Shown here: positions 11,654 through 25,235 of the stretch, one piece after another
Layout: each line of letters opens with the position of its first letter
Numbering within the stretch: the first letter of the stretch is position 1
NCBI GenBank assembly: GCA_024636345.1
Contig: JAGXHG010000035.1
Span: forward strand, 1-64,000
Direction of reading: 5' to 3'
Length of the DNA: 64,000 nt
Source: Desulfobulbaceae bacterium
GTDB taxonomy: Bacteria > Desulfobacterota > Desulfobulbia > Desulfobulbales > Desulfocapsaceae
Position numbers and translations under genes: made by a program
The notes under the pieces: generated by a model
Database searches by the model: none
The model's input: the letters and a program-made list of their open reading frames with translations, nothing else
What the model was told of the DNA's origin: nothing

Positions 11654-12934
11654 ATGGCAAAGCATGAGACGCCCCTGTTGGATGAGCTTGAAAAAGGCCC
11701 ATGGCCAAGCTTCGTTACCGACATCAAGCGCCAGGCAGAGAAAAATCCAGATTGTTGGGATATCCTTGGTCAGGTGGAGTTGTCCTACAAAGAGAGAATC
11801 ACCCATTGGAAACATGGTGGTATCGTAGGTGTTTTCGGGTATGGTGGTGGTATTGTCGGTCGCTATTCAGACATGCCAAAACGTTTTCCAGGTGTTGAGC
11901 ATTTTCACACTGTTCGTCTTGCCCAGCCAGCCTCCAAGTACTATTCCACCAAGCATCTGCGTGACATCTGCGATCTGTGGGAGAAATATGGTTCCGGTAT
12001 GACCAACATGCACGGTTCAACCGGCGATATTATTATGCTTGGTTGTCGTACTGAGGCTCTTGAGCCTTTCTTTTATGACCTGACCCACAACCTGCAACAG
12101 GATCTGGGCGGTTCCGGTTCCAATCTGCGGACCCCTGCCAACTGCCTTGGTCAGTCACGTTGTGAGTGGTCATGTTATGATACTGAAGAGGCATGTCATC
12201 ATTTGACCATGCACTATCAGGATGAGATCCATCGTCCAGCATTCCCTTATAAGTTTAAATTCAAGTTTTCCGGTTGTCCCAACGACTGTGTTGCCGCTAT
12301 TGCCCGCTCAGATGTGGCGGTTATCGGCACCTGGAGGGATAATATCCGTATAGACCAGGCTGCCGTTAAAGAATATGTTGCTGGCAATATCCCAGGAAAC
12401 GGCGGTGCCCATGCCGGTCGTGATTGGGGTAAATTTGACATTAAAAAAGAGGTTATTGACCTTTGTCCAACAGAGTGTATGTGGATGGAAGGTGGTGAAC
12501 TGAAGATCGATGACGCAGAGTGTACCCGTTGTATGCATTGCATCAATGTTATGCCTCGTGCTCTTCGTCCCGGTGCAGATCAAGGCGCGACCATCTGTTG
12601 TGGTGCCAAGGCCCCAATCCTTGATGGTGCCCAGTTCGCAACTCTGATTGTACCTTTCATGAAAGTCTCTGCTGACAATGAGTTTGAAGAGTTGATCGAA
12701 TTCATTGAGAAGATCTGGGACTGGTGGATGGAAGTAGGCAAGAACCGTGAGCGTGTAGGTGAGACCATGCAACGTGTTGGTCTGCCCACCTTTATTAAGG
12801 TTATGGGTCTGGATCCAATTCCGCAGCATGTGAAAGAGCCTCGTTCCAATCCTTATGTTTTCTGGGCGGAAGAAGAGGTTGAAGGTGGATGGAGTCGTGA
12901 TGTTGATGAGTTCCGTGCTCGCCACGCTGCCTAA
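11654..12934 (+). CDS. dsrA: Dissimilatory sulfite reductase, alpha subunit DsrA
   Basis: Alpha subunit of the cytoplasmic DsrAB enzyme that reduces sulfite with electrons delivered through DsrC, the last stage of dissimilatory sulfate reduction. The 426-residue protein has the siroheme-[4Fe-4S] ligands as C164-x5-C170 and C208-x3-C212, plus an inserted ferredoxin domain with C290-x2-C293-x2-C296 and a likely fourth ligand at C271. A strong aaaggagga Shine-Dalgarno precedes the ATG. Intact motifs and partner genes indicate a functional reductive-type enzyme. dsrB starts 50 bases downstream. Confidence 0.98.
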   Translation: MAKHETPLLDELEKGPWPSFVTDIKRQAEKNPDCWDILGQVELSYKERITHWKHGGIVGVFGYGGGIVGRYSDMPKRFPGVEHFHTVRLAQPASKYYSTKHLRDICDLWEKYGSGMTNMHGSTGDIIMLGCRTEALEPFFYDLTHNLQQDLGGSGSNLRTPANCLGQSRCEWSCYDTEEACHHLTMHYQDEIHRPAFPYKFKFKFSGCPNDCVAAIARSDVAVIGTWRDNIRIDQAAVKEYVAGNIPGNGGAHAGRDWGKFDIKKEVIDLCPTECMWMEGGELKIDDAECTRCMHCINVMPRALRPGADQGATICCGAKAPILDGAQFATLIVPFMKVSADNEFEELIEFIEKIWDWWMEVGKNRERVGETMQRVGLPTFIKVMGLDPIPQHVKEPRSNPYVFWAEEEVEGGWSRDVDEFRARHAA

Positions 12935-12984
12935 TTAGAAGTTAAATCGAGTAATTAACTCGTATATATAAGGAGATTGATAAA

Positions 12985-14112
12985 ATGGCCTATGATCCAG
13001 CCAACCCGATGTCCGACAGAATTTCCGACATCGGTCCGAGATATTATTCTGAGTTTCATCCACCAGTAGTTAAAGCCAACAAAGGCAAATGGCTGTGGCA
13101 TGAAATCACTAAACCCGGTGTTCTGGTGCATAAATCAGAGACCGGTGATGAGTGTTGGACAGTCCGTGTTGGAGCTGCCCGTCTGATTTCCATCGAGCTT
13201 ATCCGTGAGATGTGTGATATAGCGGATAAACATTGTGATGGCTTCTTCCGCTTCACAACTCGTAACAACGTTGAGTTTATGGTGGATAATAAAGCCAAGG
13301 TTCAGCCACTTCTCGATGATCTGGCCAGCCGTGGCAACAAGTTTCCAGTTGGTGGAACCGGTGCCGGCGTTACCAATATCGTTCATACTCAAGGGTGGGT
13401 TCATTGCCATACCCCTGCCACCGACGCTTCCGGCGTTGTTAAGGCAGTCATGGATGAGCTCTTTGACTACTTTACCTCCATGACCCTGCCAGCTCAGGTA
13501 CGTATTGCCCTTGCCTGCTGTCTGAACATGTGTGGTGCCGTACATGCGTCTGATATCGCCATCCTTGGTGTACATCGCAAGCCACCAATGATTGATCACA
13601 AGCGTATCACCGGTGTCTGCGAGTTGCCTCTTGCTATTTCTTCATGCCCCCTTGGTGCCGTTAAACCAGCCAAGGCCATGGTGAATGGTGAGGAGATCAA
13701 GACAGTAGCGGTCAATGCAGATCGTTGTATGTTCTGCGGTAACTGCTACACCATGTGCCCTGCCATGCCTCTGGCTGATCCTGAAGGTGACGGAATTGCC
13801 ATTCTGGTTGGTGGCAAGGTTTCCAATTCAAGATCGACTCCTAAATTCTCCAAGCTGGTAATCCCCTTCCTGCCCAACACTCCGCCACGTTGGCCTGAGA
13901 CCGTTGCCGCTGTCAAGGGTATCCTTGAAGCCTATGCCAAAGATGCTCGCAAGTATGAGCGTGTTGGCGAGTGGGCAGAGCGGATTGGCTGGGAGAAGTT
14001 CTTTGAGAAATGCGATATTCCCTTCACAATGAAGAGTGTTGATGATTATCGTTTGGCTTATGACACCTGGCGTACGACTACTCAGTTCAAGTACACCTCT
14101 CATGTCAAGTAA
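12985..14112 (+). CDS. dsrB: Dissimilatory sulfite reductase, beta subunit DsrB
   Basis: Beta subunit of the alpha2beta2 sulfite reductase; in known structures it carries the catalytically active siroheme. The 375-residue protein has Cys residues C141 and C178/C179/C183 (ACCLNMCGA) around the cofactor site and a ferredoxin domain with C248-x2-C251-x2-C254-x3-C258. Shine-Dalgarno aaggag at about 12970. Paralogous to DsrA and translationally coordinated with it by the short 50-base gap. Confidence 0.98.
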
Positions 14113-14122
14113 TTGACTTGAT

Positions 14123-14160
14123 GGTATGGTCGATTTTAAATGGTTAGAATCGACCATACC
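14123..14160 (+). other. Perfect stem-loop between dsrB and dsrD
   Basis: ggtatggtcgatt (14123-14135) and aatcgaccatacc (14148-14160) form a perfect 13-base stem with a 12-base loop, ten bases after the dsrB stop. No T tract follows, so it does not look like a full terminator. It is better placed as a 3' stabiliser or processing/attenuation signal that could set the dsrAB to dsrD ratio. Confidence 0.75.
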
Positions 14161-14205
14161 TGCTGGATACTTGCCTGTTCACAATTTTTTTTAGGAGTAT
14201 GTGCA

Positions 14206-14451
14206 ATGGCATTAAGTATTGAAGAGCTCAAGGCTGCGATCCTGAAGAAGGCAGAGACAGCCCCCAAACCACAGCTCTATATCAAGGATTTTTATGCATG
14301 TGATCCTGACTCCAAACCACGTGTAGTCAAGAATGCTGCCAATGATTTGGTTAAGGAAGGCAAAATGATGTTCTGGTCTTCCGGTTCTACCACCATGTAT
14401 GCCATGAAAGATCGTATTAAAGATGAAGAAGGCGCAGGTGGAGTGAATTAG
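14206..14451 (+). CDS. dsrD: DsrD, allosteric activator of DsrAB
   Basis: A small winged-helix protein; published biochemistry reports that DsrD stimulates sulfite reduction by DsrAB. It occurs in organisms with reductive DsrAB, so its presence argues for sulfite reduction rather than sulfide oxidation. The product has 81 residues (MALSIEELKAAILKKAETA start; FWSSGSTTMYAM wing). ATG at 14206 follows ttaggagt; an earlier in-frame start at 14140 lies inside the stem-loop and is rejected. Confidence 0.96.
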   Translation: MALSIEELKAAILKKAETAPKPQLYIKDFYACDPDSKPRVVKNAANDLVKEGKMMFWSSGSTTMYAMKDRIKDEEGAGGVN

Positions 14452-20641: not shown

Positions 20642-20748
20642 GTTGCTTCGATGATCATAGAAACTGTACGGAAAAAAAATAAAATAGTTTTTTGTATTGT
20701 GTTTTGTTTGTCACGGAGATGAGAGAATTTACAAGAGGGGGGAGTAAA

Positions 20749-20994
20749 ATGGAACAGATGGAAAAATTAAGGGTCTTGTTGCCGCATTGGATTGAGCATA
20801 ACCTGGGGCATGCTGAAGAATACGGGAAATGGTCTGCTTTTGCCCATGACGCTGCAGAAGAGACTGTGGCTGCTTATATCGAGAGCGCCATTGCGGCCAT
20901 GAATCAGGCAAGTGAACTTTTGGATAAAGCCTTGCTGGCGGCAGGCGGGAAGATGCCGGAGCATGAGCACCATCATCACCACCACCATCATTAA
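20749..20994 (+). CDS. Small helical protein with His-rich C-terminal tail, likely metal-binding
   Basis: An 81-residue protein. Residues about 1-65 look fully helical (LRVLLPHWIEHNLGHAEEYG, then an amphipathic helix EETVAAYIESAIAAMNQASE); the tail ends PEHEHHHHHHHH. The His tail is suited to binding Ni or other transition metal. ATG at 20749 follows a G-rich Shine-Dalgarno (gggggg-ag); an upstream frame extension to 20692 is ignored. Placement directly after the CooT-like gene suggests the two act together in nickel handling (inference). I recall similar small proteins beside cooT but cannot confirm it here. Confidence 0.75.
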   Translation: MEQMEKLRVLLPHWIEHNLGHAEEYGKWSAFAHDAAEETVAAYIESAIAAMNQASELLDKALLAAGGKMPEHEHHHHHHHH

Positions 20995-21301: not shown

Positions 21302-23704
21302 TCATTGTTGAAAAAAACGCCATTGCTTGGTGGCTGGATCGTAGATATAACTGGTCTGCAGGAGCACTGGCCGACTAGCTCCCTGCTCAGAACACTGGAT
21401 TTTGTAAAGCATTTTGTTGCCTATTTTTTTAAGAAATGTGACGCGAGGACTTGATAAATTCTCTGCGTTCAGGGCCGGGTTGTTTTTGGTAAAGAGCTTT
21501 TGATAGTTGTTGGTCAGATATGAGATATGCTGGGTCTTCAACATATCTTCCTGCGTCTGAATGATAGAGAGTTTAGTCTCTTTGATAATTGTTTGGAACT
21601 CCTCTTCGTTGGCGAAAGAGCTCTTGCTTGTTGTTTCGGTGATCGCCTGTAGCGTGTTGATTGCCAGGGGAAATTCCTTGTTTTTCAAGTGGTTGGCAAC
21701 GCTCTGCTGGTCTCTGATAATGGCGGCATGAAGCATGAGTCTTGAAATCTTTTGCTGGCTTTGCAGAGGATTGTCGCGGCGCAGGAGTTCACTGTTTTCT
21801 TCAAGGAGTGTAATCGCCTTTTCGTATAAACTGATAGCTTGATCCCATTGGGCATCGGTAAATGCTTTTTTCCCCTGCTCCAGAGAGTTGAATACCTTGG
21901 TTCGGATGATGATCTCCTGGAGAGAGGCGAGTGTCTCGGCATCAGAAAAAGAAAACTTCCGTTCTATCTCTTGGGCTTGTTCGAAAGCAGTAAGGGCATT
22001 TGCCCAGTTTTCTTTAGAAAAATTTTCATCACCTGTGGCCATTAATTTGTTAAATTCAACCTGGCCGTTGAGCGATTGAATCCTTGAGATGTTTGTAGAT
22101 AGAAGCTGTGGATTTTTTCTGGCAATATCCAGGGCCTTGTCAAAGTACTTTTTTGCAGAATCCCATTCTGCTCGATTCAAGGCCTGCTCGCCTGCCTGTA
22201 GAGCAATGTTGAACTCGGCGGTTGTAATGTTTCTACGGATTTGGTTAAGGATGCTTTGATCGATCGTTGGTATCGTGGAAGCAAGCTGCAATGCCTGGGC
22301 ATACCCTGCTAAAGCATCTTGCCATTTGCTGTCAGCTAGATGCTGATCGGCAAGTTTTATGAATTGCTGCCATTCCTGCAAGCTGGAGTCCTCTTTGCCG
22401 AGTGCAGAGCCTTGGCTCCTGTTTATGGAGTCTCGAGTCTGCTGAATTTCTTCAGTGAGAAGTTTTTTTTCCGCTTGCTTGATGAAAAGAATTTTTGAGG
22501 TCAACTGCAGGGCGTCATTACATTTTTGTATGGCCTCAGGAATGTGGCTTGTATCCTGAAACTGTTTGCATTCTTTGAACATTGTTTGTGCATGTTCTAA
22601 TTGAGTGTTCAAAAACAGGTAACTACAGATCAAGATAAGCAGAAAACCCATACAGCCACAGCCAATAATGGTTGGCCAGCGGGAACTCTGTTTCTTCTCT
22701 GGTTGCTGGATTGAAGCGCTCTTTTTTTTGGTGGGAGCAAACGAGTTTTCATTGCGCTTTGATGCAGTTTTTTTCTTGCCATTACCGCTATCTTTTTCGC
22801 TGACGTCTTCTGCTGCCCAATCGCCCAGCATCTCCAGAGAATATTGCGCCCGATTGATATCTTTATCTATCTCAGGAAAATCAGGAACCAAATTCTTTAC
22901 TGCTTGGTATTGCTTCAAGGCCTTTGCCGGATTTCCCTGGTGCTCAAAGGCCTCTCCTGCCTGGTGCTTTTGATGGGCGTCATTGAGTTTTTTCTGTATC
23001 TGGCTATCCAGGTCGGTATCGGGCTCGGGGTGTTGCTGGGTATCGGAGGAGGGCTGCAGGGAAAGGTGAGGATGCAGAGATTTATCTGTCACACTTTCAG
23101 AAGATGAGTTTTCTCCTTGTTCGAGTACTTCAACGTCATCAACTTCTGTTATCTCATTGCTTGGAAAAAGGATATCATCGACAATATCCATTGTCAGCGG
23201 TGCAGTCGCAGGAGCTGTTTGCCCCTCAGTGGGCAAGGCATGTGGTGCTGAGAGTTGATGGATAGTGTCCAAGGGTAGTCTGTTCTGATTCTCCTGGTAC
23301 CAGATTGCCGCTTTTTCATTGAAGGCATTATTGGTTGAGTAGATCTCACCGCAGATCATACGGCCTATATGGATGATCAGCTCGGAAAGAGATTGGTTGT
23401 TTTCCCAGAAATCTCCTATGCAGATGGCCGCCTGATCAAAGTCAGGGTGGAAAACAGGGTTTTCTGGCTTACAGCTTGGTGGAAAGTGGGGGAATCCAAA
23501 AGGAAGGGCGATAATGACGATATGATCAGTACATTCTCGGACCTTACCCTCATCTTCTTTGCAGAGGCCTTGTAGATGATAGGTGATACGATACTGTTCA
23601 GGTGGAGTGCCAGCAATAGGTGTTACTTGAATCTGTTGATGCTGGGAAAATCTGACTTTGATTTCCTGAAAAATGGCTTCCAGTTGTTCAGAAAGGATGG
23701 TCAT
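21302..23704 (-). CDS. Membrane protein with N-terminal E2 (ubiquitin-conjugating)-like domain and TPR/coiled-coil repeats
   Basis: 800 residues. Residues about 1-145 resemble an E2 fold: FGFPHFPP, then F85-H-P-D (the HPN position), then AAIC95IGDFW, where C95 sits at the catalytic cysteine position, followed by the helix LSELIIHIGRMI and NEKAAIWYQEN. A linker and a TPR-like segment (about 235-300) follow, then a Lys-rich stretch and one membrane helix at about 343-364. The rest (370-800) is helical repeats with a small terminal domain ending in WRFFQQ. The positive-inside pattern puts the E2-like part in the cytoplasm and the repeats in the periplasm. No E1, ubiquitin-like or JAB gene is nearby. 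Function unknown. Confidence 0.8.
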   Translation of the reverse strand: MTILSEQLEAIFQEIKVRFSQHQQIQVTPIAGTPPEQYRITYHLQGLCKEDEGKVRECTDHIVIIALPFGFPHFPPSCKPENPVFHPDFDQAAICIGDFWENNQSLSELIIHIGRMICGEIYSTNNAFNEKAAIWYQENQNRLPLDTIHQLSAPHALPTEGQTAPATAPLTMDIVDDILFPSNEITEVDDVEVLEQGENSSSESVTDKSLHPHLSLQPSSDTQQHPEPDTDLDSQIQKKLNDAHQKHQAGEAFEHQGNPAKALKQYQAVKNLVPDFPEIDKDINRAQYSLEMLGDWAAEDVSEKDSGNGKKKTASKRNENSFAPTKKKSASIQQPEKKQSSRWPTIIGCGCMGFLLILICSYLFLNTQLEHAQTMFKECKQFQDTSHIPEAIQKCNDALQLTSKILFIKQAEKKLLTEEIQQTRDSINRSQGSALGKEDSSLQEWQQFIKLADQHLADSKWQDALAGYAQALQLASTIPTIDQSILNQIRRNITTAEFNIALQAGEQALNRAEWDSAKKYFDKALDIARKNPQLLSTNISRIQSLNGQVEFNKLMATGDENFSKENWANALTAFEQAQEIERKFSFSDAETLASLQEIIIRTKVFNSLEQGKKAFTDAQWDQAISLYEKAITLLEENSELLRRDNPLQSQQKISRLMLHAAIIRDQQSVANHLKNKEFPLAINTLQAITETTSKSSFANEEEFQTIIKETKLSIIQTQEDMLKTQHISYLTNNYQKLFTKNNPALNAENLSSPRVTFLKKIGNKMLYKIQCSEQGASRPVLLQTSYIYDPATKQWRFFQQ

Positions 23705-24155
23705 GAAGGTTCACTTGGTGGCTTAAATGGAATGATAGTTTCTTGTACTCTTGCTTGAGGATGACACTTGGAGGATGAGTCTTTCATAATATCAGTTAGA
23801 TGTGATATCAATTTCCAAACCGTTTAGTCAGGAATGAAATTAGCTATTTTGTAATGGCTTAAGAAGGTATGTATAAATTTATAATTAGTTCGATAAGTTC
23901 AGACAGTTGACGAAAATGTTAGTATAAATGTATCAGTTTTTTCGAAGAAGAGGAATTTATTTATTGCAAGAGAAATATAACTTTTTGTTTGTGGCTTTCT
24001 TTTAAATAAATTTTTAAGGTGAAGATATAAATGGGTAGTGATTTTCTTGAAAAAATCTTTGCAGGAAGTCTAAAGAAGAGATATTGGTAGAATAGTTGAA
24101 AAAGAGCGTCGACTTTGTATAACAAATAAATCTAAATCCTTAATTGAAGCAGGGT
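23705..24155. other. AT-rich divergent gap
   Basis: About 450 bases with no supported gene, between the E2-like gene (minus) and the cNMP-domain gene (plus). It must hold both promoters, but no convincing -35/-10 pair was found. A short palindrome tataaatttata lies near 23875. Confidence 0.4.
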
Positions 24156-25235
24156 ATGAAATCTTTTCAGGCCATTTTTGAAATTATTGAAGGCAACCAT
24201 TGTCCTCTATATAAGGTTGGCGAACGGTTGATTTTGTCCGACAAGGCACTTTCCTGTCCGGGCAATAAGGCAACCTGTTTGATTCTGGTCCGGGAAATGA
24301 CACAGTTGTTGTTCAAACTCCTTTCAGCAAAGGATGATTATCTGGTGGCTGAAAAAAAACAGATATTCAGTTGTAGTGGCTGTACTGGTCTGATTAAATT
24401 TATCCCGGTATCAATTCCTGAAAGTATGGTATCAGGAACAGCTCCGGATCTGGGGGCAAGGGAGCAGGAAATTCTGGCGAAGATTCAGGCGCTTCCTCTG
24501 ATTCAGATAATCCCTGATGATGAATTAAAGAATTTTATTGGACGGTGTCAACTGGAGCTTGTTCATGAAGGGACTTTTCTGATCCATAAAGGGGAACCGA
24601 ATACGAATCTTTATCTTATCCTCTCGGGCCAAGCGCTTGTGGTTGATGGACCCGTTGTGATCACGACTTTGGGGGCTGGAGAGATTTGTGGGGAGATGAG
24701 TTATCTGGGAGGGGATGTGGCTGGGGCTTCGGTCCGGGCATTGTGTGATACAGAGGTGCTTGCTGTTTCCAGTAATGACTTTAATCTTCTTCTTGATAAG
24801 CTGCCTGCTGTTCAGATGTTTATGGCCCGTTTATTGGCGCAGCGTCTGACTCGGGTGAACAGGGCCAGGGCGGAAGATTTTGCCTCCTGTATGCAGGGTA
24901 AATTACAGGATATGGCCCCTGCTGAGCTGTTTCAGATCTTTCATATGAATAGTAAAACCGGCGTTCTTGCCCTGAACCTCCCTCGTGGGCCGGGAAAAGT
25001 TTCCTTTCGGGAAGGGTGTATCATTAATGCCCATTATCAGGGACAAGAGAATGAAGAGGCGATCTTTTCCATGCTGGCTGAACATGAAGGAACCTATACG
25101 TTTACCCTTGGGCTTTCTCCACAAGAGATGAAGGCTGCGGAAATCGGTGATTTTATGAGACTTCTTATGGAAGGGGTTAAGCGGGTGGATGATGTGCAGG
25201 AGGGAAGGCAGGAGAAACATGCAAATAATTCTTAG
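24156..25235 (+). CDS. Cys-rich / cyclic-nucleotide-binding / DUF4388-like regulatory protein
   Basis: 359 residues in three parts. Residues 1-85 hold C16, C34, C41, C73 and C76 in a pattern like the TIGR04076 family (NHCPLYKVGERL, CSGC). Residues about 115-235 are a cNMP-binding beta-roll (IHKGEPNTNLYLILSGQALV, GEICGEMSYLGG). Residues about 245-345 resemble the DUF4388/PATAN domain (ELFQIFHMNSKTGVLALNL, VSFREGCIINAHY). No Crp helix-turn-helix follows, so it should signal through protein contacts rather than DNA binding. ATG at 24156 is preferred over TTG at 24144, although both have weak ribosome sites. Shows no operon partner. Confidence 0.8.
   Translation: MKSFQAIFEIIEGNHCPLYKVGERLILSDKALSCPGNKATCLILVREMTQLLFKLLSAKDDYLVAEKKQIFSCSGCTGLIKFIPVSIPESMVSGTAPDLGAREQEILAKIQALPLIQIIPDDELKNFIGRCQLELVHEGTFLIHKGEPNTNLYLILSGQALVVDGPVVITTLGAGEICGEMSYLGGDVAGASVRALCDTEVLAVSSNDFNLLLDKLPAVQMFMARLLAQRLTRVNRARAEDFASCMQGKLQDMAPAELFQIFHMNSKTGVLALNLPRGPGKVSFREGCIINAHYQGQENEEAIFSMLAEHEGTYTFTLGLSPQEMKAAEIGDFMRLLMEGVKRVDDVQEGRQEKHANNS

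Follow-up and report, generated by a model that had tools for sequence, protein, structure and literature searches.

The window, by which we mean the whole analysed stretch of 64,000 nucleotides (positions 1 to 64,000 of contig JAGXHG010000035.1 in assembly GCA_024636345.1, Desulfobulbaceae bacterium), contains an open reading frame at 21302..23704 that starts with ATG, lies on the minus strand and, according to the ORF list and its translation, encodes an 800-residue protein of the composition UBC-TPR-TM-TPR-beta; an earlier note on this DNA had given the coordinates without the strand. Reading from the N terminus, with all coordinates on the minus strand, the protein starts with a UBC (E2-fold) domain (residues 1-141, 23282..23704), followed by a low-confidence linker (residues 150-229, 23018..23257) that is probably disordered, with pLDDT below 50 at residues 152-229, and by N-side TPR-like helices (residues 230-296, 22817..23017) that are probably cytoplasmic and are seen both in the model and as a TPR_2 match at residues 248-275. 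These are succeeded by a lysine-rich linker ahead of the membrane, evident from the sequence and from a charge comparison (residues 299-345, 22670..22810), a transmembrane helix (residues about 346-364, 22613..22669), a long TPR solenoid that is presumably periplasmic (residues 370-732, 21509..22597; Pfam, model and Foldseek) and, in the alignment and the model, a conserved C-terminal helix with a four-stranded beta domain (residues 734-797, 21314..21505).

The full-length model displays the same order, namely UBC domain, low-confidence linker, three TPR-like helices, a second low-confidence linker rich in lysine, membrane helix, solenoid and beta domain, at a pLDDT of 79.1 and a pTM of 0.45, the latter value making the relative placement of the domains unreliable. 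In Pfam, TPR families pass the cut-off at residues 248-275 and 502-531 (TPR_2 reaches 38.7 bits against a cut-off of 27), and one family remains just under it at residues 619-636. Together with the model helices, these matches bear out the TPR-like repeats that the earlier note had placed after the E2-like domain. The membrane helix it had proposed is likewise present, with a 19-residue Kyte-Doolittle maximum of 2.36 from residue 346 and a model helix at 350-384. Its description of the C-terminal part as helical repeats holds for the long solenoid of the model and fails at the very end, where the four-stranded beta domain (residues 750-797) closes the protein. The best 50 matches listed in a full-length Foldseek search are mostly TPR proteins, with nothing informative on the beta domain among them. 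In several relatives (L031, L032 and other loci of genus g1) the C-terminal beta module appears to have a tandem second copy, and such a duplication would account for forms of about 900 residues, as compared with the 800 in the window.

The N-terminal E2 fold

As a single sequence, the whole protein scores 17.7 bits with the Pfam family UQ_con and the domain alone 21.3 bits (E 2e-4), the Pfam cut-off being 27. Taken by itself, a score below the cut-off speaks for a plain TPR protein without any UBC domain, whose E2 motifs are a chance resemblance. However, the profile matches and the predicted fold rule this out, and we regard the chance explanation as negligible. Namely, phmmer against PDB sequences returned 59 matches up to E 10, of which 57 are named E2 or UBC (best E 0.003), and a profile built from a 39-row family alignment picked up 177 distinct PDB sequences with E<=0.001, the best of them at 9e-9; among the best 60 of these 177, all but one bear the name E2, UBC or ubiquitin carrier (59 sequences), the remaining name being uninformative. 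With the same alignment as input, AlphaFold2 modelled the UBC region at a pLDDT of 92.8 and a pTM of 0.89 with its elements in the E2 order, and Foldseek found 330 PDB matches to this model at E<=0.001 (best E 4e-6), and each of the best 50 is an entry with an E2 in it, at a TM by query of 0.59-0.69 and an rmsd of 4-7 A. In particular, the domain possesses the alpha1 helix, beta meander, active-site loop and C-terminal helices of the E2 superfamily, along with the PxxPP and HP motifs. We therefore consider the E2 fold of the N-terminal domain as good as certain. What had been suspected from the sequence for about residues 1-145 has, in other words, for residues 1-140 stood up to AlphaFold2, Foldseek and profile search; the motifs sit where they had been read (FPHFPP at 71-76, FHPD at 85-88, then AAIC95IGDFW and NEKAAIWYQEN), and the stand-alone status and membrane fusion of the domain are supported as well.

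Distribution, sampling and topology

The domain is present in 36 of the 58 relatives (29 of the 47 good genomes). Of the 257 genomes of the order 170 carry it (101 of the 148 good ones), and of 395 genomes drawn evenly from the phylum 12 do, two of which lie outside the order; 13 of the 17 named loci with the domain are labelled Desulfocapsa, Desulfocapsaceae or Desulfobulbaceae. For the active-site comparison we took a single protein per locus at 124 loci in 120 genomes, comprising 73 long proteins of f1 (the window's own family), four short f1 paralogues, 36 proteins of f12, eight of f3, one of f6 and two from outside the order. The sample was selected and does not take in all of the 170 genomes: 84 further loci were picked from part of the list and 80 obtained, and L031, L032, L040, L045, L046 and L079, plus short loci, were left out as repeats.

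The 19-residue hydrophobicity maximum lies above 1.6 in every long f1 row (73/73), every f12 row (36/36) and seven of the eight f3 rows. The 15 residues preceding the membrane stretch are more positive than the 15 following it in 51/73 f1, 32/36 f12 and 7/8 f3 rows, with this positive-inside bias being absent in 22 of the 73 f1 rows. In the window protein, the lysine-rich linker at residues 299-345 suggests an N-in topology, and the charge bias, even if not seen in every row, favours a cytoplasmic UBC head.

Conservation at the active site

By alignment, H86-P87-D88 (23441..23449, minus strand) is the equivalent of the E2 HPN motif with Asn replaced by Asp, while Cys95 (codon TGC, 23420..23422, minus strand) corresponds, in both the alignment and the profile, to the catalytic Cys of E2 enzymes; a recheck on the window DNA confirmed the codons of both. 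Residue 95 varies across the homologues. In the long f1 proteins it is Cys in 68 of 73, the other five having Y, R, H, S and S; f12 has Arg there in 34 of 36 rows, Ala in the other two and Cys in none; in f3 it is Cys in six of eight, the others being R and K; the single f6 protein has Cys; and the four short paralogues have Pro (three) or Arg (one) and again no Cys. Even in f1, 39 of the 148 columns are more conserved than that of C95. Conservation of the catalytic Cys across the family is not what we find, then, though the window copy has it, and an E2 fold devoid of the Cys, as in UEV- or RWD-type domains, occurs in f12 and the short paralogues, while the window copy retains Cys95. The earlier note had named homologues without a conserved C95 as an outcome that would count against its reading: such homologues do exist across the order, as the Arg of f12 demonstrates, but in f1 the Cys is largely kept. 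As for the HPN Asn, it is Asp in the window (Asp88) and in 73/73 f1, 34/36 f12, 8/8 f3, 1/1 f6 and 1/4 short paralogues, the other three short paralogues having Glu; this position does vary in some active E2s.

All 122 family rows share H86, P87, D90, W100 and A132 without exception, and 34 columns are at least 97% conserved in f12 (36 rows) as against 29 in f1 (73 rows), a comparison in which the fewer rows favour f12. Both observations argue that the UBC domain is under strong constraint, whether it has the Cys or not. On a tree of the 124 rows, two outgroup rows included, residue 95 changes state at least seven times; this is a quick LG+G4 tree with the Cys column included, and it came with a warning that long branches come together at the two outgroup rows. 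Since a single supported clade unites f12 with the short paralogues, their loss of the Cys may be a single event, the other losses being scattered. The short paralogues, of about 530 residues, include three with Pro95 that lie 3' of clpS-clpA and group with f12 (L077 7825-9423, L158 4001-5587 and L075 7324-8922). Because Cys is so widely kept in f1 and Arg is equally fixed in f12, site 95 evidently matters for something, and the fixed Arg95 of f12 suggests a re-used pocket.

Gene neighbourhood

Divergent from the E2 gene lies a candidate partner gene (24144..25235, plus strand), whose 363-residue product has, according to Pfam, an N-terminal region followed by a cNMP-binding domain (24561-24797) and by DUF4388 (24894-25193), which we take to be the PATAN domain. 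The N-terminal region, of some 90 residues, is conserved, contains CPLY and CLIL motifs and has no match in Pfam or NCBIfam. The partners in f12, f6 and one f3 locus seem to retain this region and the PATAN domain without the cNMP domain. In particular, 26 of the 28 best partner matches in f12 cover the PATAN end only, with the other two being partial, and Pfam finds DUF4388 alone in the partners of the f6 locus L172 and the f3 locus L174. For cyanobacteria, an action of PATAN response regulators on type IV pili has been reported (PMC7690835). A link of the present protein to type IV pili via Amuc_1098 was dropped, as the match scores 29 bits where 750 would be needed to reach the cut-off and falls in the TPR region.

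A PATAN homologue is found within the stretch around the locus in 58/73 f1, 28/36 f12, 8/8 f3 and 1/1 f6 cases; around 15/73 f1 and 8/36 f12 loci it was not found, some of these stretches ending at contig edges. In f1 and f12 a wider neighbourhood of KdsD-like, HAD and SecDF genes is often kept too, so the adjacency of E2 and PATAN genes there may be mere inertia. However, at the nine f3 and f6 loci (stretches of 5.3-17 kb) KdsD, HAD and SecD were not found and the PATAN gene still accompanies the E2 gene; the pair is likewise retained at L068. Genome-wide co-occurrence with a cNMP-PATAN homologue proved useless as a measure, as all 58 relatives have one. A joint loss of Cys95 and the cNMP-PATAN partner, striking in the 58 genomes, is not significant on the tree, where three pairs go the same way, none the opposite way and three show no difference (p 0.25), with the partner state set as unknown in five rows and one split ORF scored as present by hand.

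The other neighbours in the window are, by Pfam, SIS-CBS and HAD proteins, along with what we assume to be sulfite reductase, AdoHcy/SAM and SecDF genes. At 11654-14451 (plus strand) the ORF list has two sulfite-reductase-like subunits and then a short protein, which we take to be siroheme-sulfite-reductase-like subunits and a DsrD-like protein, fitting for a sulfur-cycle bacterium. At 20692-20994 (plus strand) lies a gene for a 100-residue protein with a C-terminal histidine run, EHEHHHHHHHH, and similar small proteins are found near E2 genes elsewhere.

In rearranged contexts, AAA+ genes lie one to three genes from the E2 gene. Homologues of an AAA_2-AAA-M41 (FtsH-like) protein are near it in four of eight f3 loci, where Pfam was run on L073 only, and ClpB-type proteins are near it at L174 (f3) and L172 (f6). 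ClpS-ClpA genes lie upstream of three of the four short paralogues, with the fourth adjoining a RecD2-type helicase gene. The protein at L073 (3745-6213), near the E2/PATAN pair, is an 822-residue fusion of AAA_2 (ClpB-like) and an FtsH-like AAA-M41 protease. Having been spotted after looking, this association comes without a valid p-value and is a lead only.

Conjugation partners and relatives in conjugation operons

The Bil or 6A-6E type of operon, in which an E2 is encoded with E1, Ubl and JAB proteins, is not what one finds at the window locus. In the window's genome, which is 83% complete, Pfam profile searches gave no match to Prok-JAB or Prok-RING_1 and none to UQ_con besides the window gene. 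A YukD-type Ubl was found in none of the 41 family genomes, this one included, and Prok-RING_1 in none of the 58 relatives over the cut-off and in two below it. Prok-JAB occurs in 32 of the 58 relatives at E<=0.001 and in 18 over the cut-off, namely in five of 36 E2-bearing as against 13 of 22 E2-lacking genomes, counts that ignore kinship. ThiF, by contrast with the families not found in the window's genome, is represented there: three proteins exceed the cut-off and a fragment stays under it. Of the three, L051 satisfies two ThiF equivalog cut-offs, L049 resembles TcdA most closely without reaching the TcdA cut-off, and L050 is of a MoeB/ThiF-like type and below every cut-off shown. A gap in the partner search stems from the incompleteness of the genome, from the ambiguity of L050 and from the restriction to families other than ThiS/MoaD-type modifiers; distant partners may also be missed by Pfam, given that even UQ_con does not reach its own cut-off with the window protein. 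The earlier note had offered either a conjugation system scattered in the genome or a use outside conjugation. With Prok-JAB, YukD and Prok-RING_1 not found, the scattered system is disfavoured, and use outside conjugation, as binding, gains. An anti-phage role was considered and rejected, since the PADLOC matches of the two window proteins submitted to it were confined to TPRs and the cNMP region.

Relatives with conjugation neighbours do exist. An E2 from another family of the phylum (L092) has HPN and the Cys, scores 29.2 with UQ_con (Pfam cut-off 27) and 120 bits with a family profile built without it, and carries a zinc ribbon. It belongs to a ten-gene ubiquitin-like operon with proteases (L092 2904-14595) that runs on one strand through trypsin, YukD-type Ubl, ThiF E1, JAB, FHA, Prok-RING_1, E2, DnaJ, AAA and subtilase genes. 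The Crinalium plasmid pCRI9333.03 encodes a further relative (27.7% identity, E 4e-4; 53 bits with the family profile), again with HPN and Cys, whose own Pfam score of 25.1 is below the cut-off and which is encoded with ThiF and JAB genes and two small neighbours that gave no Pfam match. A second UBC-TPR-TM protein from outside the order (L093) has HPN and lacks the Cys. Because the L092 and Crinalium relatives adjoin E1 and JAB genes, descent from conjugation E2s is probable. The simplest history, which we infer from sequences with long outgroup branches, would be the capture of a conjugation E2 and a later loss of its chemistry in some lines.

Discussion

As the partner genes were not found and the key residue is swapped in many homologues, the E2 fold is probably a docking platform and not an enzyme. 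In the explanation that we favour, and that we hold to be probable, if modestly so, it is a binding module carried by a TPR scaffold in the membrane and acts with the PATAN protein. Namely, a UBC domain descended from the E2s of bacterial ubiquitin-like conjugation would have become detached from its E1, Ubl and JAB partners and joined to a TPR protein that crosses the membrane once. It would then serve as a non-catalytic protein-binding head on the cytoplasmic side, in the manner of UEV or RWD domains, and recruit the PATAN-domain signalling protein encoded alongside, presumably by physical contact. On the opposite side of the membrane, the TPR solenoid and the beta domain would hold envelope partners, and the scaffold may in this way couple a cytoplasmic signal, cNMP-responsive in the window's family, to an envelope complex.

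How do other explanations compare? One may picture an active E2-like enzyme in the Cys-bearing families, with Cys95 taking a Ubl or acyl group from an unlinked E1 and transferring it at the membrane, and indeed the alignment of this residue with the catalytic Cys, its retention in 68/73 f1 and 6/8 f3 proteins and its presence in the two relatives beside E1 and JAB genes are all in keeping with such chemistry. That said, all rows of f1, f3 and f6 have Asp in place of the HPN Asn, the Cys has been lost repeatedly, and Prok-JAB, YukD and Prok-RING_1 were not found in the window's genome, and so we deem an active enzyme unlikely. We find it similarly improbable that the protein is a cytoplasmic adaptor for AAA+ quality control, in which the UBC head delivers or senses substrates of Clp/FtsH type: the three rearranged contexts near AAA+ genes, noted post hoc, would agree with it, but searches with ClpA, ClpS and FtsH-like queries found no such neighbour, within the stretch around the locus, at any of the 73 long f1 loci, among them that of the window, or at any of the 36 f12 loci.

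Very unlikely, in our view, is a redox or ligand switch, in which Cys95 would be a thiol sensor, or an anion site where it is Arg, working with the cNMP-PATAN protein. Such a switch would make sense of the joint occurrence in f12 of Arg95 and of partners aligning without the cNMP domain (26/28 loci), and of the fact that four of the five long f1 rows without Cys have no partner in the stretch. However, the tree-based pairs give a p of only 0.25, Cys is present without an intact partner in nine f1 rows and the f6 row, and rows with S or R do have an intact partner (G447, G609). A more speculative picture, and a fairly unlikely one in its entirety, extends the favoured scaffold: the E2 fold, captured from ubiquitin-like conjugation, would be the cytoplasmic head of a transmembrane TPR receptor that works with PATAN proteins and, in rearranged lineages, with AAA+ proteases, as a bacterial counterpart of the UEV adaptors of eukaryotes, the pocket residue having gone from Cys to Arg as its ligand or partner changed.

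Returning to the binding module on a membrane scaffold, eukaryotic UEV and RWD domains use the E2 fold for binding, as we propose for the membrane family, and we know of no UEV/RWD-TPR membrane fusion of this kind. The L092 and Crinalium E2s share the homologous UBC domain and the same FHPx..Cys region, but they retain HPN, the Cys and neighbouring E1/JAB genes and lack the membrane TPR portion, whereas the membrane family is stand-alone and mostly has HPD. Inactive E2/RWD-like domains without the Cys occur in polyUbl operons, according to Iyer 2006 (PMC1779556); these likewise have the UBC fold, yet they are situated in Ubl/E1/JAB operons, while the window copy lies outside such an operon and keeps its Cys. 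BilABCD, as described in PMC11354881, comes with a Ubl, an E1 and a JAB of its own, and BilB, an E2 with a CEHH motif, is a bacterial E2-like protein too, whereas the window protein gave a PADLOC match in its TPR part only. Both sources discuss bacterial E2-like proteins as parts of conjugation operons (PMC1779556, PMC11354881). Within the open-licence literature we found no stand-alone membrane-TPR version of an E2 across an order and nothing on the present protein family.

Related proteins naturally carry Cys, Arg, Ser, His, Tyr or Pro at one and the same site, which allows a clean test of these ideas. If the favoured explanation holds, the change from E2 to binding module, known from eukaryotic UEV and RWD domains, would also exist in bacteria, outside conjugation operons.
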